This document shows, in pieces, positions 9,701-17,016 of a DNA stretch of 31,381 bases (position 1 is the first letter of the stretch; each line of letters opens with the position of its first letter). The DNA is taken from the IMG/VR virus record IMGVR_UViG_3300046750_000394, positions 1 through 31,381 of that record. The stretch is one strand, 5' to 3'. Both the position numbers and the translations under genes were made by a program. Source of the stretch: a virus. Under the pieces are notes generated by a model. It worked only from the letters and a program-made list of their open reading frames with translations, was not told the DNA's origin and made no database searches.

Positions 9701-10356
9701 ATAAGCTCTGGGTTATCTAGGTACTCTTTAGATGAAAGTTTAGCGACATCGACAATAAATGGTGGTATAGCGATTGCTGTTTTAACCTTTGCCATTTTGT
9801 CGATGCCACTAAACAAATACCCACCAGTCAAAACTGGCTTTAGAAAATGGTATATGTCTTGGGGCGATTCCATGTCTGCGAGCTTGTCGCATATCTGCTG
9901 TAAGTGGGAATCAATACACGCATTACCAGCGTAAAAGACATATTCTAAAATCTGCTCGCACTTCTCTCTGGTTATAGTCTCGCCATTATCTAACCCTAGC
10001 TTTTTAGCGTGTGCTTCTGATCGCCTTATACTTTCATCTATCTTTACCAGAAGCTCAGTTAGTATTTTCGCCTCAGCTACATTGTGAGTACGCAACGCCT
10101 CATCTAGCATTTTATCTAGTTCCTCTCTGCGTTCCTCTAAAGTCTTGTTATCTTGTAATACTGGGCTATCTAGTATGGCTTTCTCAGCTGTCACCTTTGT
10201 CAGCCATTGCCTAACGCTAGGTGGTAGGTTTGGTCGCCCAGAAAACCACCTTATCATTGCCTCGTCATTATCTAAGGGTGCGTTGTCAGCCAACCACCTA
10301 GAGATGGTTCTAGTGCTTACTCCAAACTTCTGGGCGTGCTGTTCCCTATTATCCAT
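9688..10356 (-). CDS. Terminase small subunit (HTH DNA-binding)
   Basis: 222 aa. Residues 3-25 (NREQHAQKFGVSTRTISRWL) form a helix-turn-helix like lambda Nu1, which recognises the packaging site. Residues about 75-110 (TLEERREELDKMLDEALRTH, AEAKILTELL) are the helical oligomerisation region. It lies immediately upstream of TerL, overlapping it by 13 nt. CCAAGG just before the ATG is one of the few SD-like sequences in the window. A TTGACAC palindrome lies 12 nt before the start. The C-terminal 90 residues resemble nothing I can name. Confidence 0.75.
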   Translation of the reverse strand: MDNREQHAQKFGVSTRTISRWLADNAPLDNDEAMIRWFSGRPNLPPSVRQWLTKVTAEKAILDSPVLQDNKTLEERREELDKMLDEALRTHNVAEAKILTELLVKIDESIRRSEAHAKKLGLDNGETITREKCEQILEYVFYAGNACIDSHLQQICDKLADMESPQDIYHFLKPVLTGGYLFSGIDKMAKVKTAIAIPPFIVDVAKLSSKEYLDNPELIWDS

Positions 10357-10368
10357 ACCTTGGGCTTA

Positions 10369-10383
10369 GTGTCAATTTGACAC
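10369..10383. promoter_or_regulatory. Perfect 15-bp palindrome GTGTCAATTTGACAC before terminase
   Basis: Two copies of the TTGACAC motif lie back to back, giving a perfect 7+1+7 inverted repeat 12 nt before the TerS start. A dimeric regulator would bind such a site. It stands at the entrance of the packaging/head module, so it is a good candidate operator for the switch to late transcription. Confidence 0.55.
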
Positions 10384-10500
10384 CTTATTTGAAAAACTTT
10401 TTTTGCGTAAAAAAATGCACGAAGGCGATGAACCCACAGAGCTTTGCAATTCAATAGATTCCTTTTTTATTTTTAAACTCATATAACACAGCTGAGATGC

Positions 10501-10584
10501 TCATAATGCAACAAAAGATAGGCATATAAGCCCTATTAACATAAAAGAGATAGATAAGACTAATAAGGTGGTCTGAGCTTTCAT
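10501..10584 (-). CDS. Possible 27-aa single-span membrane peptide
   Basis: ATG at 10584 opens MKAQTTLLVLSISFMLIGLI followed by CLSFVAL and TGA, a single hydrophobic span. It lies 8 nt after the stop of the gene at 10592-11062. A second 17-codon ORF overlaps its stop (ATGA). There is no SD. It may be a small membrane effector or lysis accessory, or a chance frame in a 235-bp gap. The rest of 10385-10500 shows no supported feature. Confidence 0.3.
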   Translation of the reverse strand: MKAQTTLLVLSISFMLIGLICLSFVAL

Positions 10585-10591
10585 GGGGCAT

Positions 10592-11062
10592 TTAAACAAG
10601 TCCTAACCTTTTCAGATCATTAACAATAGGTGTGAGTGCCACCTTATCTACATCATTTAACTGCTTAGTATTGCGTAGGTACGCCCCCAGCTTGTTAGTA
10701 TATACTAAGTGTGTGGCTGGTTTTGCCTTTATGGTTTTACTACCACCCCCAGTATTATCTATGCCCCCCCTACTCGATGTAACGACACCTAATGCTAATG
10801 CCATTTGTTTAGGGTCGTCAGCGACACGCCTATACTTTACTGAACGCTTTGCAAAGTCCTCACCAAAGTTTTCCATTAACCAGCCCTTATAGTTGTTACG
10901 CCCAGTATGGTTTTGTGCTTCTTTAAGTAGCTCGCCAATCTGTACGCCAACCTTACAAGCCTCGCTGATGTTTTGCTTAGCTGTGTTAGCTTTCTGCAAA
11001 GCCTCTACATCTAATGCCTTTATATTATTTTCTATTGTGGTTAGTATGCTTAATTCATTCAT
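10592..11062 (-). CDS. Unknown early protein, DUF3102-like (156 aa)
   Basis: Start at ATG 11062 (MNELSILTTIENNIKALDVE), whose ATGA overlaps the stop of the preceding gene; the frame is open for 6 codons further upstream. Residues 28-75 (ISEACKVGVQIGELLKEAQN, NNYKGWLMENFGEDFAKRSVKYRRVA) have the 'helix, Gly-Trp-Leu, helix' layout of DUF3102-like phage proteins, which precede or follow replication genes and are thought to bind DNA. The rest has Gly/Lys/Thr-rich linkers and a helical C-terminal end. No catalytic motif is visible. It is coupled to the HTH gene upstream. Confidence 0.6.
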   Translation of the reverse strand: MNELSILTTIENNIKALDVEALQKANTAKQNISEACKVGVQIGELLKEAQNHTGRNNYKGWLMENFGEDFAKRSVKYRRVADDPKQMALALGVVTSSRGGIDNTGGGSKTIKAKPATHLVYTNKLGAYLRNTKQLNDVDKVALTPIVNDLKRLGLV

Positions 11063-11421
11063 GATTGTGCCTTTCTGCAATTATCTCTGTTCGCTTCTGA
11101 TCTATTATTTGCTGACTGTAAGCCAAAGGTATCACGCAACTCATTAGCTACTGCTGATACTGCTGAGCGTGTTAGACCAGACGCTTTAGCTATGTCCTCA
11201 AATGTTTTTATATTATCGCCTAGCTCTATGTTAAGGGCTTGGGCTAATACCATCGTTCTAGCACCTATGCTGTTAGCTGTGCCACCAGATATTAGAAACA
11301 CCATGAGACGAGCTATTACTATCGCCAGCTCTCTGGTGTGTTCAGTTACTGGCTCTATAATATCTACGACATCTTCATTTACTGCGATGTCTGTATTTTC
11401 TAGTAGCTGGTATGTTCTCAT
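11059..11421 (-). CDS. Small HTH protein, probable regulator (120 aa)
   Basis: Residues about 72-100 (TFEDIAKASGLTRSAVSAVANEL) form a clear helix-turn-helix, preceded by a hydrophobic helical core (ELAIVIARLMVFLISGGTAN). The basic C-terminal end, rich in Asn and Arg, may contact DNA. It overlaps the DUF3102-like gene by 4 nt (ATGA), so the two are translated together. An HTH protein in the accessory block near terminase could be the late-gene regulator of this phage, for example by binding the TTGACAC sites, but that is inference. Confidence 0.65.
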   Translation of the reverse strand: MRTYQLLENTDIAVNEDVVDIIEPVTEHTRELAIVIARLMVFLISGGTANSIGARTMVLAQALNIELGDNIKTFEDIAKASGLTRSAVSAVANELRDTFGLQSANNRSEANRDNCRKAQS

Positions 11422-11460
11422 TTTTAGTTTTAATTCTTTTTAATAATAGGCGTGTAGTAT

Positions 11461-11847
11461 TCATATTAATTTGGTTAATAAAATCTCTACTCTGGGGTTA
11501 TCCTTATCTATATCTAATTTAGTAGGTAGGTGCGAAAGTATATAGTGGTTATCGTCAGCCATTAGCCCAGCCTCTACAAAGCCATCATAGTAAGCCTTAC
11601 AAAGTGCCTCAGCGTTCCTAATGTCTCGCCTGCGATTAGTTTTAAAATAGTAAGTCTCTTGGGTCTCTACTTTCTCCCAAGGTGTGTTAGGTATGTTAAG
11701 CTGGTCGATTGCATCAATCGCCAATATCTTATGCTTCTTAATTAAGTTACGCACCATGCCCACGCCTTGCTTGCTGACTGGTGTGTAATTCCTAGACAGC
11801 TTTGGGCTAGGTATGGGTAAGGTAACAAGTATAGTATGCTGGCTCAT
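11461..11847 (-). CDS. RusA-like Holliday junction resolvase
   Basis: 128 aa from ATG at 11847 (MSQHTILVTLPIPSPKLSRN); the start overlaps the upstream stop by 4 nt (ATGA). The order beta-hairpin, then RRDIRNAEALCKAYYDGFVEA, then GLMADDNHYI, then IDKDNPRVEILL follows the RusA family, with acidic residues in DIRN and ADDN positioned as the metal-binding Asp residues. RusA cuts four-way DNA junctions during recombination-dependent replication and packaging. Length agrees with RusA (120-140 aa). It fits with the Sak4/exonuclease set elsewhere in the genome. Confidence 0.72.
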   Translation of the reverse strand: MSQHTILVTLPIPSPKLSRNYTPVSKQGVGMVRNLIKKHKILAIDAIDQLNIPNTPWEKVETQETYYFKTNRRRDIRNAEALCKAYYDGFVEAGLMADDNHYILSHLPTKLDIDKDNPRVEILLTKLI

Positions 11848-12080
11848 TCTTCTGGTTCGCCTCTGTCGATTATAAAAGTACCCATACACTCCAAGCCAAC
11901 TATGTTGTGATCTACCCAGCTGACTGCTTCTATGTAGCTCAAACCTTTCATGATAAAGTGGGCTACCATTTTGTCGTAAGAATAGACAAGGTAGCCATTA
12001 CGAATACCAACTATAGCTTTATCCAGATCGTCCAAAGCTACTGAGTCTTTTCTTAATTTAGCTCTATCAAAATATGCCAT
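11844..12080 (-). CDS. Small unknown early protein (78 aa)
   Basis: Preferred start ATG 12080 (MAYFDRAKLRKDSVALDDLD). A frame opening with TTG at 12116 would read through the promoter (12088-12116), so it is unlikely. Predicted start-up sequence is leaderless or nearly so: the -10 TATAAA ends 7 nt before the ATG. The protein is mixed helix/strand with a YDKMVAHFIMKGLSYIEAVS middle part. No family recognised. It is coupled to the RusA-like gene by ATGA overlap. Confidence 0.6.
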   Translation of the reverse strand: MAYFDRAKLRKDSVALDDLDKAIVGIRNGYLVYSYDKMVAHFIMKGLSYIEAVSWVDHNIVGLECMGTFIIDRGEPEE

Positions 12081-12087
12081 ACTTGTT

Positions 12088-12116
12088 TTTATAAAGCCAT
12101 GCTGGCGTTGTGTCAA
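12088..12116 (-). promoter_or_regulatory. Sigma70-like promoter before the 78-aa/RusA genes
   Basis: Minus-strand TTGACA (12111-12116), exactly 17 nt, then TATAAA (12088-12093). It is the best canonical promoter in the window, standing 7 nt before the ATG at 12080 and directly after a terminator (12129-12157). Confidence 0.7.
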
Positions 12117-12128
12117 ACTGGGTACACT

Positions 12129-12157
12129 AAAAAGCCCCAGAGGGTTAGTCTGGAGCT
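12129..12157 (-). terminator. Terminator after the 71-aa gene
   Basis: Minus-strand AGCTCCAG and CTGGGGCT (one G-T pair) form an 8-bp stem around ACTAACCCT, followed by TTTTT (12129-12133). It ends the transcript of the gene at 12182 and lies just before the promoter at 12088-12116. Confidence 0.82.
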
Positions 12158-12181
12158 TTGTGGTATTAACTTTATTATTAC

Positions 12182-12397
12182 TTATGATTGTAAAGTATGT
12201 TTCACTTCCTCTTCAAACTCTGAGTGTAGTATTCTTAGCTCTTCCTCGTGGTCGTAAACATAGCTGGCTATGTCGTTTGGGTTTGAGTAATCGTCTCCAA
12301 CTATGTAGCCATATTTGCCAGTAACTCTTAGCGTGTGGTTTTTAAGCTCATACTTAGTGCCATTGTCTGAGGTATATCTTTTAATTTTGTGTGCCAT
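12182..12397 (-). CDS. Small unknown early protein (71 aa)
   Basis: Begins MAHKIKRYTSDNGTKYELKN, with a likely small beta-sheet (HTLRVTGKYGYIVGDDYSNP) and an acidic helical end (HEEELRILHSEFEEEVKHTL). No family recognised. It has an A/T-rich leader AATTATTATTACT in place of an SD, and its own terminator, so it is probably expressed early together with the two genes upstream. Confidence 0.65.
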   Translation of the reverse strand: MAHKIKRYTSDNGTKYELKNHTLRVTGKYGYIVGDDYSNPNDIASYVYDHEEELRILHSEFEEEVKHTLQS

Positions 12398-12427
12398 AGT
12401 AATAATAATTGGTGGTTAATGTTAGTG

Positions 12428-12739
12428 TTAAAAATTTGCGACTTCAGCAAGTGTAGCTCTAGTCTCGTCATCGTGTTCTACTCTGAAAGAATTATTGAAG
12501 CCATCGTAGAATAAAACAAAGGGTGAGTTTTCTACTTTCTCAGAGTATGTTACTGATAACTTGTAAGCGTTCAATTTGCTTGCGTACTCTGGGTCAGATT
12601 TAAGTAGCTTGCTGTGAGCGTATGGGTCGCTCATTAGTCTAACCTCCATATTGTACTCGTCCATAATTCTTTTGCGTGGTGTTACAACCTCGTCACGATA
12701 TTGCTTACGAATTTTTTGTTTTAGTGGTTCAATATTCAT
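12428..12739 (-). CDS. Unknown early protein (103 aa)
   Basis: Begins MNIEPLKQKIRKQYRDEVVT and is mostly charged helix, with a hydrophobic/aromatic segment near the C-terminus (NSPFVLFYDGFNNSFRVEHD). No family recognised. A promoter candidate (12765-12792) lies upstream and the leader carries AACTTATTATTAACACT. A spacer of 30 nt separates it from the next gene, so it probably shares a transcript with the 71-aa gene. Confidence 0.65.
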   Translation of the reverse strand: MNIEPLKQKIRKQYRDEVVTPRKRIMDEYNMEVRLMSDPYAHSKLLKSDPEYASKLNAYKLSVTYSEKVENSPFVLFYDGFNNSFRVEHDDETRATLAEVANF

Positions 12740-12764
12740 AGTGTTAATAATAAGTTATAAGACA

Positions 12765-12792
12765 AAACTAGCATCTGGGTTGTGCGAGTCAA
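12765..12792 (-). promoter_or_regulatory. Promoter candidate before the 103-aa gene
   Basis: Minus-strand TTGACT (12787-12792), 16 nt, then TAGTTT (12765-12770), extending to TAGTTTTG. The latter also matches the Bacteroidota -7 pattern TAnnTTTG. Either reading supports a promoter in this A/T-rich gap. Confidence 0.5.
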
Positions 12793-12828
12793 TAGTAAAT
12801 ACACAAAAAAGTGATTTTTTTTATTTTT

Positions 12829-13143
12829 TTAATATGTCTTATTTACGACCCACTCGCCATTGATTCTCTTGATCGAAATATAGGTGGTTTCTTCTAAGCC
12901 ATGTTCGTGGTGATAAGTGTAACAGTCTAACGCCCCATCTTCATCTACTATGTCCTCGTAGGTGTGTTGGTGTAGGTCTGCTACTCTGATGTTATCCAAT
13001 ACTGTGTTGTATGGTTCGTTAGGGCTTTCTGGTTGTAACCATAGGTTACATTCGTAAGTAACTCCATATTGCTTGCCAACTATCCCAGTTATTAGCTTGG
13101 ATATTTCCCTAGTGTCTTTTCGTGTGATTTTGTATTTTTTCAT
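12829..13143 (-). CDS. Unknown early protein (104 aa)
   Basis: Begins MKKYKITRKDTREISKLITG. It has a helical, basic N-terminal third and a His/Glu/Asp-rich middle (ADLHQHTYEDIVDEDGALDC, YTYHHEHGLEETTY), which could bind a metal, though no known motif is formed. It is the first gene after the iteron-like region, with a promoter candidate at 13167-13197 and leader AACTTATTATTATAACT. Host-takeover or anti-defence functions are common in this position, but there is no direct evidence here. Confidence 0.65.
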   Translation of the reverse strand: MKKYKITRKDTREISKLITGIVGKQYGVTYECNLWLQPESPNEPYNTVLDNIRVADLHQHTYEDIVDEDGALDCYTYHHEHGLEETTYISIKRINGEWVVNKTY

Positions 13144-13166
13144 AGTTATAATAATAAGTTTAAAAA

Positions 13167-13197
13167 TCTATACTAGTGATTTAGCCTAAAAGGTCAA
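13167..13197 (-). promoter_or_regulatory. Early promoter candidate before the 104-aa gene
   Basis: Minus-strand TTGACC (13192-13197), 19 nt, then TATAGA (13167-13172); shifting the -10 to GTATAG gives 18 nt. It leads into the small early genes and lies just downstream of the repeat-rich region. Confidence 0.5.
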
Positions 13198-13238
13198 GCT
13201 CCAAATTTTTACGCTCATGATCGTGAACACACCACCTA

Positions 13239-13273
13239 CCTAAATATTCCAGTCCTTTAGACTGGATATTAGG
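13239..13273. other. Long stem-loop next to the iteron array
   Basis: CCAGTC (13249-13254) and GACTGG (13260-13265) pair around a 5-nt loop. The outer arms CCTAA(A)TAT and ATATTAGG extend the stem with a small mismatch. No T-run follows on either strand, so it is more like an origin or regulatory structure than a terminator, although it could end the transcript of the gene at 13434. Confidence 0.6.
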
Positions 13274-13286
13274 GTAGTGTTGGGCT

Positions 13287-13433
13287 GGCTCTGCACGCAA
13301 ATATATATATTAAGGGCTGTGCATAGCCAGAATATTGGCGTAAGTCCTTTATACATAAGGGTTTTGGGTCTGCACGCACCTAAAAGCGATTTGCGTAGCC
13401 AAATGGCTCTGCATAGCTCTGCATGGCTCTGCA
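13287..13433. repeat. Iteron-like array of GGCTCTGCA repeats; candidate replication origin
   Basis: Six copies of a 9-bp motif (consensus GGCTCTGCA, plus strand) start at 13287, 13315 (GGCTGTGCA), 13366 (GGGTCTGCA), 13405, 13415 (AGCTCTGCA) and 13425. The last three are exactly 10 bp apart, one helical turn, so a protein could bind them on one face. Two copies run on into CACGCA. An ATATATATATT stretch (13301-13311) lies between copies and a stem-loop sits beside the array. No convincing gene covers 13144-13433. The layout matches iteron origins bound by a Rep/O-type initiator. The nearby primase-helicase supports this, but the function is inferred. Confidence 0.55.
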
Positions 13434-14294
13434 TTATACCCCACACATTCCCTCACACTCAGCCTTAAAATCCCAAGTAAGTTGCCCCTTTTCTTCATCG
13501 GTATCAAAGTCTACTTGGTCTAAAGGTTTAGCAGATTGGTGTAAAAAAACTGGCATATTGAGCTTATCATATTTTATGAATTTTTCTCTAATTTGCTTAT
13601 CAAATTCAATAGCTTTTTTAAATTCGTTAGGCTCATTATCTCTTAAATGTCGCCAGTCCTCATTATTATGAAATGGGCAATAGTAGCACGCTGACCTTGG
13701 TGGTTCTTTATAACCATTATCTAATAGCCATTTTTTACAGTCATTGCGTGTTATTTTTTGCTCAATCAAAGGGTGTCTTTTAACACACCAAGCGTTTCTA
13801 CTGTCTTTCATTCGCTGTATTTCGTCCCAGCTAATACCTATCCACTCAGTTATGGTTGCGTGCTTTTGACCTCTTTTTACATTAAACTTATTCCTAAGAT
13901 ACTTGTGGATAGGTTTAATTTTAAAGCCAGCAGTACATTGCCTACCTAAAGCACCTATTACAGAGCCATCTTTTTTAAGCCCATATACTGGTATCTCTTT
14001 TGGCATATACATAACGCCATCTCTCTTTCTTTTATATGGCGTTAATGACTTTTCTGTAAGGCTACCAGCTGTAACTTTTACAACTGGATAAGGTAAGACA
14101 GACTCTAGCCACTCTAAATGCTCGTAAACAGATTGTGGCTCAGCTTGGGTATCTGCAAAAATAGCTAAATCTGGCATTGGCTTAATTAAACCTTTAACAG
14201 CCATTAAAGCCATCGCTGTGGATTGTACACCAGCACCTAAGCTGAGTACATTATACTTAGTTGGTTCTGGTGGTTGTAAAAAAGAATACTCCAT
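13434..14294 (-). CDS. PAPS reductase-like protein (PP-loop, adenine nucleotide alpha hydrolase family)
   Basis: 286 aa from ATG 14294, two bases after the stop of the primase-helicase. The PP-loop SLGAGVQST (residues 18-26) would bind ATP pyrophosphate. FADTQAEPQSVYEHLEWLES follows, then GRQCTAGFKIKPIHKYLRNK and WIGISWDEIQRMK, then RSACYYCPFHNNEDW with a CxxC pair, and Cys residues again at the C-terminus (CEGMCGV). This is the common phage 'PAPS reductase/sulfotransferase' family. True sulfate reduction is unlikely; relatives such as DndC and tRNA-thiolation enzymes move sulfur onto nucleic acid. An Fe-S or zinc site built from the Cys residues is plausible. The exact substrate is unknown. 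Confidence 0.85.
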   Translation of the reverse strand: MEYSFLQPPEPTKYNVLSLGAGVQSTAMALMAVKGLIKPMPDLAIFADTQAEPQSVYEHLEWLESVLPYPVVKVTAGSLTEKSLTPYKRKRDGVMYMPKEIPVYGLKKDGSVIGALGRQCTAGFKIKPIHKYLRNKFNVKRGQKHATITEWIGISWDEIQRMKDSRNAWCVKRHPLIEQKITRNDCKKWLLDNGYKEPPRSACYYCPFHNNEDWRHLRDNEPNEFKKAIEFDKQIREKFIKYDKLNMPVFLHQSAKPLDQVDFDTDEEKGQLTWDFKAECEGMCGV

Positions 14295-14295
14295 A

Positions 14296-16275
14296 TTATA
14301 GTAGGGTTTGATAATAATATTTCTTACCATTAGACTGCTTCTTAAAGGCTATAATAGCCCCAGAATCCTCTAAAACTTTTACTAAGTTATCTACCTTTCG
14401 TCTGCCCCATTCTGAGCTTTCTACTAGGAAATCTTTACTTACAGCGTCCTCTTTAGATAGTGGTACTAGCTTCTGAATCTCTCCAGCCTCACTATGTTGC
14501 CTTATGGCTTGCTCTACTTCTTTATCGTAAAACGATAGGCTAAACTCTGTGTGCTTGTTACCATTAGTGCATTCCTTAACCTCAGCATTAAACTTAGCGA
14601 CTTTCTGACCGACATAGCCTACGCCACCCTCGTTATCTTTATCCAGAATAAGAGTAGAGTACCCAGAGTTTTCACGACTAAAAGGTACTGTAGGATCAAT
14701 AAGATAGCTCGCACCTTTGTAAGCACCTCTCTTACTACTAGCACCTCTAGCACCTCTAGTACCATCTGTGTTTTTACTAGTGTGGTCAATTATCAGCACA
14801 CACTTACCAGCCATAGCGAAAGGCTTACATAGATCGTTAATTATCTGCAAAGCACCCATGTTATCGTTTTCATCGTAACCAGAGTTAGCCATATAGTTGG
14901 CTATCCCATCAATCACGACTAAGCTAAACTCGTCATCTCGCACGCCAGCTTGTAGAATCTTAATCTCTTTATTATCTTTATCGTTTGGGTCGAACATATC
15001 AGACCTATACAGAAACTTAGCACCAGAATCTTTAGCTATTAGCTTTAGCTCACCTATTGGTGCTTCTAAATATTCTAAGCGTTTAGTGATATTGTTTTTA
15101 CTCGATTCTGGGTCTAAATAAAGCACGCTGTTGCCTCGTCTTAGCTCTTGCATGGAAATATAAAGGGCTATCCAGCTTTTAGAGATTCCAGCTTGTCCAT
15201 GTATCTCGTTCATCTCGCCACGATAAAATAAAAATTTATCCTTATCGTACTCGCCAACGCTAGGCGTAGCTATTTTGCGTTCTGATTCTAGCCACTCTAG
15301 GTTTAAGATATTTTCTGTCAGTTGCTCCCAGCTAGATAAAGTCTCTGTGCTTTCTATCTGCTGTTTGTTTTTGTTAAAGACTTTGTTGGTAAAGTCGTCC
15401 AGCATCTTTTGTGCTTCAGCTGTTAGCTCTACCGACTGACTATACTGGTCGTTTACTAAATAACCTAGTGGCATATTAGACTTCTCAGTAGCTTCTTTTA
15501 CTTTGCGTTCAAAGTCTCTTACATCGTTATTATTTGCCCTATCCCAAGGTGGGTTACATCTAGGGTTAAAATCTGACCATAAGATACTGCACGCCTCGCC
15601 CTCTGGTAGTGCGAAACCTCTGACAAGTACAGATGCAGTTTTAAAGAGTGTGCTATGCCCACCCATGCCTTGTACAGCTTCTGGCATTTGACTAATGTAG
15701 TTTCTGGCTCGCTCTACGATGTTACTATTTACACTAAATGATTTAGGTAGTGTACCAGCTGTTGTATTTACTACAACCTTGGGGCTTGCTAGTTCTCGTA
15801 TATGCTGTGGCAACGCTACTGGTTCTAGCCCAGCTGTCTCCCACTTGTACTCGTTACCATCTACAACGCTGTTAGGTGCGACTATGTAGCCATTAGATAG
15901 TAAGTCGATACCTTTAACTAGATTGGTTTTTCTAGGTGGTGGGTTTCCATCTGTGCTATATACATAGTGACAGCCACCAGAGCCAGTACGACTGGTCGCA
16001 GTTAATGGTAGATCGCCAAGCTCATGTATGCTTTCAAAGCCATTTACATCGCCATGTATATCTACATCTATAACACAGATACCAGATGCGTCTAAAGCTA
16101 TACCAATATTAGCATCTGGGCTTTTAGTCCACCACTCTCTGATAGTTTTAAAATCAGTCGTAGCGTCCTTAAATCCATTTGCTGTTAGTGGCTTTTTAGA
16201 GTTAGGAATAAGTGGGAATATGTGAAGCCCTACCTTTGCATTAGATAGAGCATAGTGTAATTTAGTTTTTTGCAT
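14296..16275 (-). CDS. Primase-polymerase / helicase replication protein
   Basis: 659 aa. Residues 1-160 are an archaeo-eukaryotic type prim-pol domain: FPLIPNSKKPL, GFKDATTD, NIGIALD, the catalytic CVIDVDIHGD (Asp70, Asp72) and SRTGSGGCHYVY (His103). Residues about 345-560 are a RecA-fold RepA/DnaB-like helicase with Walker A GQAGISKS (360-367) and VLYLDPESSK, then Walker B LVVIDGI. The C-terminal 80 residues look like a winged helix (SSEWGRRKVDNLVKVLEDSG), which could dock on the origin. The protein would make primers and unwind DNA; a separate phage DNA polymerase is not seen, so the host enzyme is likely used. It overlaps the dNMP kinase gene by one base. Confidence 0.88.
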   Translation of the reverse strand: MQKTKLHYALSNAKVGLHIFPLIPNSKKPLTANGFKDATTDFKTIREWWTKSPDANIGIALDASGICVIDVDIHGDVNGFESIHELGDLPLTATSRTGSGGCHYVYSTDGNPPPRKTNLVKGIDLLSNGYIVAPNSVVDGNEYKWETAGLEPVALPQHIRELASPKVVVNTTAGTLPKSFSVNSNIVERARNYISQMPEAVQGMGGHSTLFKTASVLVRGFALPEGEACSILWSDFNPRCNPPWDRANNNDVRDFERKVKEATEKSNMPLGYLVNDQYSQSVELTAEAQKMLDDFTNKVFNKNKQQIESTETLSSWEQLTENILNLEWLESERKIATPSVGEYDKDKFLFYRGEMNEIHGQAGISKSWIALYISMQELRRGNSVLYLDPESSKNNITKRLEYLEAPIGELKLIAKDSGAKFLYRSDMFDPNDKDNKEIKILQAGVRDDEFSLVVIDGIANYMANSGYDENDNMGALQIINDLCKPFAMAGKCVLIIDHTSKNTDGTRGARGASSKRGAYKGASYLIDPTVPFSRENSGYSTLILDKDNEGGVGYVGQKVAKFNAEVKECTNGNKHTEFSLSFYDKEVEQAIRQHSEAGEIQKLVPLSKEDAVSKDFLVESSEWGRRKVDNLVKVLEDSGAIIAFKKQSNGKKYYYQTLL

Positions 16276-16826
16276 TAGTTAATAAGTGTTTCTATAATCT
16301 CGCTGGCTCGCTTTATGTCGCCAACATCAATACTATCATTAAATGATAAATATTCTGAGCTTATAGGTGTTTCAGTTTTGTGTTCGTTAGTGTAATTAAT
16401 ACCATCTCTGGTAAGTGAAATAATGTAGCCACCTTGGCTTTGTATAAACTTAGCCTCATTATCAAATCGTAAGTCATCAATTAGAATAATTTTATCGGTG
16501 CTTATGTACTTTCTTAGTCGCTGGTTCATAGCCCTTAGCCATATATCGTCTAGTACAGTTTCACGACCCCAGCTAGTGCCAAGGGTCTGCATAAGCTCCC
16601 TACCAGATACGCCATCTAGCCAAGGTATTGGCTCTTGCTTTCCCTCTGGGTCATTCACAAAGTGTTCTGTAAGCCCCATAGCTTTAAGCATATCTTTAAT
16701 GGGTGTAGCAAAGCTTTCTATAGCGTAGTCGTTATAACCAGACTTAACTAGCTCATTAGCCACTACTGTCTTGCCTACGCCTCTTGCACCAGTAAATGCT
16801 ATGATTAGGTTACTTTCGTTTTTCAT
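16275..16826 (-). CDS. Deoxynucleoside monophosphate kinase (P-loop)
   Basis: 183 aa from ATG 16826. The P-loop GARGVGKT (residues 13-20) opens the fold, followed by FATPIKDMLKAMGLTEHF and then DGVSGRELMQTLGTSWGRE, which is the LID/substrate region of phage dNMP kinases (T4 gp1-like). IILIDDLRFDNEAKFI is the Walker B-like stretch. The enzyme phosphorylates dNMPs released from host DNA to dNDPs for phage replication, and in some phages handles modified nucleotides. A TTG nine bases upstream could add three residues but overlaps the preceding gene; I prefer the ATG. Confidence 0.82.
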   Translation of the reverse strand: MKNESNLIIAFTGARGVGKTVVANELVKSGYNDYAIESFATPIKDMLKAMGLTEHFVNDPEGKQEPIPWLDGVSGRELMQTLGTSWGRETVLDDIWLRAMNQRLRKYISTDKIILIDDLRFDNEAKFIQSQGGYIISLTRDGINYTNEHKTETPISSEYLSFNDSIDVGDIKRASEIIETLIN

Positions 16827-17016
16827 CGCTTTCAAAAGTTAGCTGTTCCATAGCTGAGTTCAACCATTGTACACAGCCCTTAAAATAAACTCTGTCACTC
16901 TCTTGTAATCTAGTATCTATTTTTAATACTAGCCTACGAGCTTGGCGTACCTTTTCGTATAGTCCTTGTGCGTGCATACGCATTGCATCTTCATCTTTAA
17001 AATCTTCTTTTAGCAT
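16810..17016 (-). CDS. Small helical protein (68 aa), unknown
   Basis: Begins MLKEDFKDEDAMRMHAQGLY and is almost entirely helical and charged, with RRLVLKIDTRLQESDRVYFK suggesting a small helical bundle. No family recognised. It lies between the methyltransferase and the kinase and overlaps the kinase by 17 nt, so it belongs to this metabolic operon. An adapter or regulator role is possible. Confidence 0.65.
   Translation of the reverse strand: MLKEDFKDEDAMRMHAQGLYEKVRQARRLVLKIDTRLQESDRVYFKGCVQWLNSAMEQLTFESDEKRK

Follow-up and report, generated by a model that had tools for sequence, protein, structure and literature searches.

The gene-free gap and its repeats

The window, as we call the whole stretch of DNA analysed here, is a 31,381-base record of a virus of bacteria, a tailed phage with portal, terminase, protease and tape-measure genes. 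Nearly all of its genes are carried on the minus strand. The replication block encodes a Cas4-type exonuclease, Sak4, SSB, a DNA repair exonuclease, a methyltransferase and a primase-helicase. Next to the primase-helicase gene lies a PAPS-reductase gene, whose stop at 13434 borders a gap that ends at the start of a 104-aa gene at 13143; two ORFs, of 68 aa and 63 aa, are predicted within it (Table 1).

Allowing at most one mismatch, the motif GGCTCTGCA occurs six times on the plus strand of the gap, starting at 13287, 13315, 13366, 13405, 13415 and 13425 and spanning 147 bp (13287-13433), with the last three copies at exact 10-bp steps. On the gene strand (minus) the iteron unit reads TGCAGAGCC, and a minus-strand copy at 13320 overlaps that at 13315, giving a near-palindrome. 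The clustering of the repeats is far above chance. At most 7 sites on both strands fall within 150 bp, whereas none of 30 dinucleotide-shuffled versions of the window had more than 2. In a motif-free test the best 9-mer had 7 copies in the gap region, whereas no 9-mer exceeded 4 copies in any of 18 other 600-bp stretches of the window or 3 in any of 30 shuffles. The AT run ATATATATATT occupies 13301-13311, and the neighbouring hairpin folds as DNA with z = -4.0, a value that none of 200 shuffles reached. The sequence-only reading had described six repeats in 147 bp, three of them at exact 10-bp steps, with an A/T run and a stem-loop in a gene-free gap, and our motif search, shuffles and gene map bear out each of these features.

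Other searches of the region were negative. GC skew was uninformative, being negative almost throughout the window because nearly all genes lie on the minus strand, and third-codon-position skew showed no switch at the gap. No Rfam family matched the window, a nucleotide search of 10000-17000 against phages gave no match, and a scan of both strands for intrinsic terminators in 12700-13600 found none. By eye, promoter-like TTGAC-N16-TAGTAT/TAGTTT sites (13170-13197 on the minus strand, and upstream of 12739) precede two neighbouring small genes; the promoter scan scored only one of the two TTGAC-N16 sites. The first of them resembles, again by eye, TTGACC..CACTAGATT in the relative L037 described below.

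Table 1 Features of the proposed origin and its surroundings in the window.
Feature	Position	Strand	Remarks
Primase-helicase, 659 aa, proposed initiator	14296..16275	-	Prim-Pol, AAA_25 (RepA-type) and C-terminal winged helix
Variable winged-helix end, proposed iteron-binding domain	14296..14505	-	codons 591-659 and stop
PAPS-reductase-like gene	13434..14330	-	between initiator gene and proposed origin; absent from L037
Gene-free gap, proposed origin	13144..13433	-	290 bp; same element in L037 without PAPS and 104-aa genes
Three direct iterons, TGCAGAGCC/TGCAGAGCT	13405..13433	-	exact 10-bp steps
Degenerate inverted copy, TGCGTAGCC	13392..13400	+	from motif-free repeat test
Iteron copy, TGCAGACCC	13366..13374	-	from motif search
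Near-palindromic double iteron, GGCTGTGCATAGCC	13315..13328	.	
AT-rich run, AATATATATATT, proposed melting site	13300..13311	.	iterons flank both sides; L037 CTATATATATTTGCATAGCC aligned
Iteron past the AT run	13287..13295	-	context AGCCAGCC..A.ACTACC conserved with L037
Hairpin TCCAGTC-TAAAG-GACTGGA, proposed primase start signal	13248..13266	-	inside longer imperfect stem ~13230-13282
Promoter-like TTGACC-16-TAGTAT	13170..13197	-	precedes 104-aa gene; 1 found, 3.2 expected in shuffles

A close relative and the C-terminal end of the primase-helicase

With the primase-helicase as query, 2.9 million viral contigs yielded one close relative, L037, at 88% identity; with the 103-aa neighbour protein as query, L037 was returned again together with a 450-base piece of another contig. 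A protein scan of genome contigs gave no relative. Because only one close relative was found, the comparison of the window with L037 is that of a single pair. The exact three-unit array of the window was sought in viral contigs and not found, and a search with the origin-core pattern returned the L037 contig and L096 and L097 only; the matches in the latter two lie inside coding sequence resembling a helicase gene and were judged to be chance. None of 36 PAPS relatives carried a two-unit 10-bp TGCNNAGC array, so array and PAPS gene do not move as a pair.

L037 is without the PAPS gene and the 104-aa gene, that is, both of the genes that border the gap in the window, and its element has the primase-helicase on one side and the shared 103-aa gene on the other. 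The element thus persists while the genes flanking it come and go, which is what one would expect of a site and not of a gene's own regulator. Its repeats are of the TGCATAGCC type rather than the TGCAGAGCC type, with three at 10-bp steps from 6357, 70 bp past the primase-helicase stop codon; an AT run, which runs into TTTGCATAGCCAGCC, and a stem-loop are also present, and the alignment shows that the flanking context of the repeats is common to both sequences. All 7 pairs of the stem are kept, 3 of the 7 by changes on both sides, and the TAAAG loop is unchanged; this compensation is seen in two sequences only, and 56 of 500 shuffles reach the same level. Taken alone, the L037 hairpin does not fold unusually well (z -1.1). 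By eye, a hairpin and T run resembling an intrinsic terminator lie at 6316-6350 in L037, right after the primase-helicase stop and upstream of the repeats.

The primase-helicases of the window and L037 differ most at their C-termini. Residues 591-659 are identical at 35 of 69 positions (51%), compared with 543 of 590 (92%) for residues 1-590 (Fisher p 2.8e-16), and codon-aligned nucleotide identity drops abruptly from about aa 580. The fourfold-site difference is similar in the two parts (5/14 in the C-terminal part, 66/219 over the rest; small numbers). The last ~70 residues were modelled as a helix-turn-helix with a wing, with block means of 77-93 pLDDT from residue 31 onwards in the 99-residue model; this was the best of five models, at 74 overall compared with 39-45 for the other four, from an alignment of two sequences only. 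The best Foldseek matches were to winged-helix regulators of the SmtB/CzrA/MepR kind, the best at E 1.6e-3 and none below 0.001, and a PDB sequence search with the whole primase-helicase gave none at E up to 1. The divergence of this region alongside the changed repeats suggests that the repeat unit and the domain that likely reads it have changed together. Thus the winged helix that had been placed at the C-terminus of the primase-helicase from sequence alone is supported by the structure model and by the divergence of the region, coupled with that of the iterons. Moreover, loss of the repeats from relatives that keep the replication genes, which would have spoken against an origin, was not seen: L037 keeps the array, the AT run and the stem-loop.

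Arrays, hairpins and coupled change in other phages

We scored the stop codons of fused Prim-Pol/primase-helicase genes, found by protein similarity and with the window and L037 excluded, by the most copies of any 9-mer (at most one mismatch, both strands) in the 300 bp around the stop, and called an array at a score of at least 6. Arrays were present at 12 of 25 such stops, compared with 2 of 264 other stops in the same loci (p 7.7e-13), and the 12 genes are spread over 8 of 18 protein clusters (window-L037 cluster removed). The remaining 13 of 25 had no array by this score. Left out of the 25 were, among 27 distant viral loci (L043-L069), 7 without a closed ORF, L061, which reaches the locus end, and 3 with ORFs below 500 aa, and, among 12 phage loci, 3 with ORFs below 300 aa; the six short-ORF rows all scored 2-3, so that the count including them is 12/31. 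Both control stops scoring at least 6 come from L057, and L060 scores 3 though degenerate repeats are visible. One of the 12, P8625 (L124), has no Prim-Pol match over the Pfam threshold and is annotated as a DNA primase/helicase.

The arrays are unlike each other in sequence (for example CGGTAAGG, TGTTCCA, ATGTCCGAAA, CGGACACTT and, in P8625, TATCGGCA), and the helicase types of the genes that bear them include AAA_25, VapE-like and D5_N. A second set, picked by similarity to the array-bearing protein of L114, gave 4 of 11 stops with arrays (Alteromonas PB15, Salicola CGphi29, Idiomarinaceae 1N2-2 and Roseobacter CRP-821) compared with 1 of 84 controls, and a third gave 3 of 5, with no controls (CRP-406, CRP-811 and MinS1, the last from the window's own search); both sets are biased, as they were chosen mostly by similarity to that protein. 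Vibrio phage 1.210.O resembles the window in order, its helicase being succeeded by a PAPS gene and then by six GTCCG units and a hairpin. L134 has a 9-mer score of only 3, both after its PAPS gene and after its helicase. Small phages repeatedly have PAPS-reductase-like genes close to those for RepA-type primase-helicases (window 13434-14330, L134, L132 and P8625), and in the window and Vibrio phage 1.210.O the PAPS gene stands between the helicase gene and the repeats.

A hairpin with an apex of the form CT(A/T)nAG recurs beside the arrays of RepA-type helicases. Requiring a perfect stem of at least 6 pairs within 400 bp downstream, we found it after 9 of 19 array-bearing stops and 0 of 175 control stops; the apex motif was chosen after most of the sequences had been seen, L114 was recognised only afterwards, one row depends on joined ends of the P8625 record and L134 was scored after the PAPS gene and not the helicase. 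The motif was found in none of the 7 VapE-like, D5_N-cluster and L053 rows, and among the other 12 rows L048, L068 and L127 fail its strict form. In the later set the strict motif occurs in 1 of 5 (CRP-811, a relative of CRP-821), while CRP-406 has a near variant and MinS1 a different hairpin.

Iterons and C-termini also vary together elsewhere. In a seven-phage D5_N-type cluster, iteron distance correlates with the distance between the last 70 residues (r 0.83; 0.84 as a partial correlation on the body), compared with r 0.16 for body distance, and 32 of 5040 permutations were as high as observed. L063 and L064 share 97% identity in the body and 68% in the C-terminus, and have the iterons AGGACACAT and CGGACACTT, respectively, whereas L059 and L064 have 100% identical C-termini and the same iteron. 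L061 offers just 79 bp of downstream sequence. The Roseobacter phages CRP-821 and CRP-811 are 88% identical in the body and 75% in the C-terminus; TGTATAAA/TTTATACA occurs 7 times in CRP-821 and 0 in CRP-811, CTACAAA/TTTGTAG 0 and 11 times. Their iterons thus wholly differ whereas the hairpin AAACCCTTTAGGGTTT is identical in both, which suggests that the C-terminus reads the iterons and that another part of the protein reads the hairpin. These comparisons suggest that the repeat sequence and the DNA-binding end of the copying enzyme change together, as a lock-and-key pair.

The array pattern alone is not specific, as it is also found in other viral contigs. Two sister contigs, L041 and L042, share the motif and each encode a protein of 817 aa, for which Prim-Pol and AAA_25 were matched in L041; there, however, the array lies ~870 bp upstream of the primase-helicase gene and not downstream. 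The pattern also occurs in 13 bacterial or archaeal contigs, with Prim-Pol in 3 of the 13 genomes and no evident proximity between the two, which counts against the specificity of the motif. One bacterial contig, L108 (Salinibacterium), has a long tandem TGCACAGCGC array in 10-bp steps, with no Prim-Pol match in that genome. A loose 18-base pattern found 30 viral contigs, many with GC-rich 5-bp arrays, and was set aside from the argument. The GC-rich arrays, in L079, L080, L084, L086, L088, L091 and others, repeat GCC at intervals of about 5 bp (TGCCAAGCCATGCCGAGCC...). Of the 30 contigs, 10 match AAA_25 above the cut-off, with some arrays at most 1-2 kb from the match (L074, L079).

A candidate iteron origin of replication

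The repeats are very probably the spot at which the virus starts copying its DNA. The candidate iteron origin put forward in the sequence-only reading draws support from the conservation of the element in L037 and from the coupled divergence, and we regard it as well supported, not proven. We consider it likely that the gap as a whole is the phage's replication origin, with iterons bound by the C-terminal winged helix of the primase-helicase. The winged helix would bind the TGCAGAGCC iterons, all on the same face of the DNA given their 10-bp steps; RepA-type helicase rings would assemble there and open the AT run; and the exposed stem-loop would serve as the start signal for the Prim-Pol domain, with a polymerase extending the primer. 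One polypeptide would then do the work of RepC, RepA and RepB' in plasmid RSF1010. The array, its persistence beside altered neighbours, the coupled divergence and the recurrence of arrays at primase-helicase stops are observed; binding, melting, hairpin priming and origin activity are inferred. Counting against the proposal, a 0.9-kb gene stands between the initiator gene and the array in the window.

The gap could also be an origin whose iterons are bound by another phage protein that recruits the primase-helicase, such as the small product of the gene at 11059-11421, which lies ~2 kb away and has weak MarR/Crp-type HTH matches that fall short of the Pfam cut-offs (MarR_2 E 0.0038). However, this protein is 87% identical in L037 and shows no sign of the change expected of one that reads altered repeats, whereas the C-terminus of the primase-helicase does, and in other phages the arrays follow primase-helicase genes. 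We therefore think a separate binding protein unlikely. It is quite improbable that the repeats are an operator, at which a repressor or activator controls the promoter-like site at 13197-13170 before the small genes. That site is ~90 bp from the last repeat and similar in L037, but promoter-like sequences are fewer than expected by chance, and an operator leaves unexplained the AT run, the compensated hairpin, the coupling with the C-terminus and the presence of arrays at the stops of primase-helicase genes elsewhere among phages. A packaging (pac) site, suggested by terminase genes 3-5 kb from the array, or a functionless repeat patch born of chance or slippage, suggested by tandem 10-bp repeats of this kind in unrelated bacterial contigs, is highly improbable, since window and L037 share 94% identity in the terminase small subunit though the repeats changed, and slippage would not give spaced, partly inverted copies with a flanking context common to L037.

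The proposed origin bound by the primase-helicase has its closest known counterparts in the PICI, SCCmec, RSF1010, pRN1 and PLE replicons, compared here as described in the papers cited. In the pri-rep-ori of PICI/SaPI elements, as in the window, iterons lie in two sets around an AT-rich region (PMC6092414); in the window these are a single copy at 13287-13295 on one side and 13315-13433 on the other. The PICI/SaPI origin is immediately 3' of the pri-rep gene (PMC6092414), as in L037 but not in the window, where the PAPS gene intervenes, and the conserved hairpin is a further difference. PICIs are satellites (PMC6092414), whereas the window has portal, terminase, protease and tape-measure genes of its own. 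In SCCmec, direct repeats that lie downstream of the initiator helicase operon are contacted by the C-terminal domain of the initiator, Cch2; the likeness is one of description, and SCCmec has separate primase and helicase proteins and 5-nt iterons (PMC7581432). RSF1010 oriV resembles the window in its iterons, RepA helicase and archaeo-eukaryotic primase with a hairpin, ssiA (PMC4234260, PMC4434180). RepB' primase recognises ssiA (PMC4434180), and for this reason we propose a priming role for the window hairpin. The likeness is of layout, in that the window has iterons and a hairpin whose recognition by the primase is putative, and RSF1010 uses three polypeptides (RepA, RepB', RepC) where the window has one 659-aa protein with Prim-Pol, AAA_25 and wHTH. 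Plasmid pRN1 likewise has its stem-loop origin after a gene for prim-pol, helicase and winged helix, an arrangement that the authors of that work also proposed for some phages (PMC4234260); the pRN1 stem-loop is about 100 nt, its helicase is of superfamily 3 and it has no iterons, in contrast to the 19-nt core hairpin, AAA_25 helicase and iterons of the window. The phage P4 alpha protein is a further likely parallel noted in the same paper (PMC4234260). In PLE satellites the DNA-binding domain of the RepA initiator and the origin iterons are exchanged together, although RepA is of the RepA_N family, the iterons are ~30 bp and the element is a satellite (RepA/Odn module swapping; PMC8263062). 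The window and L037 have clustered direct repeats near the initiator gene (at 0.9 kb and 70 bp, respectively) and an AT-rich region beside them (13300-13311 in the window), and from these comparisons we file the element as a probable iteron origin, not as a member of the PICI, RSF1010 or pRN1 groups. Our search of the open-licence literature, with most subscription journals outside its scope, found no description of the element or of a phage-wide rule.

We hypothesize that in many tailed phages a fused primase-helicase gene bears an origin cassette at its 3' end, in which the winged-helix coding end and the iterons next to it are swapped as one piece, while the CT(A/T)nAG hairpin is kept for the conserved primase/helicase part; we see the case for this generalisation as evenly balanced. 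Exchange as a unit would let origin specificity switch in a single recombination step, which bears on incompatibility, satellites and origin-directed nucleases. If true, CRP-821 and CRP-811 would represent alternative states of this switch, the PICI origin layout would extend to full phages, and there would be a ready test of how phages escape satellites or nucleases mimicking their origin specificity. The natural swaps between CRP-821 and CRP-811 and between the window and L037 are ready for testing which amino acids read which iteron. Among environmental phages, many origins would be located by a simple rule: inspect the primase-helicase stop codon or, where a PAPS gene comes next, the sequence just past that gene.
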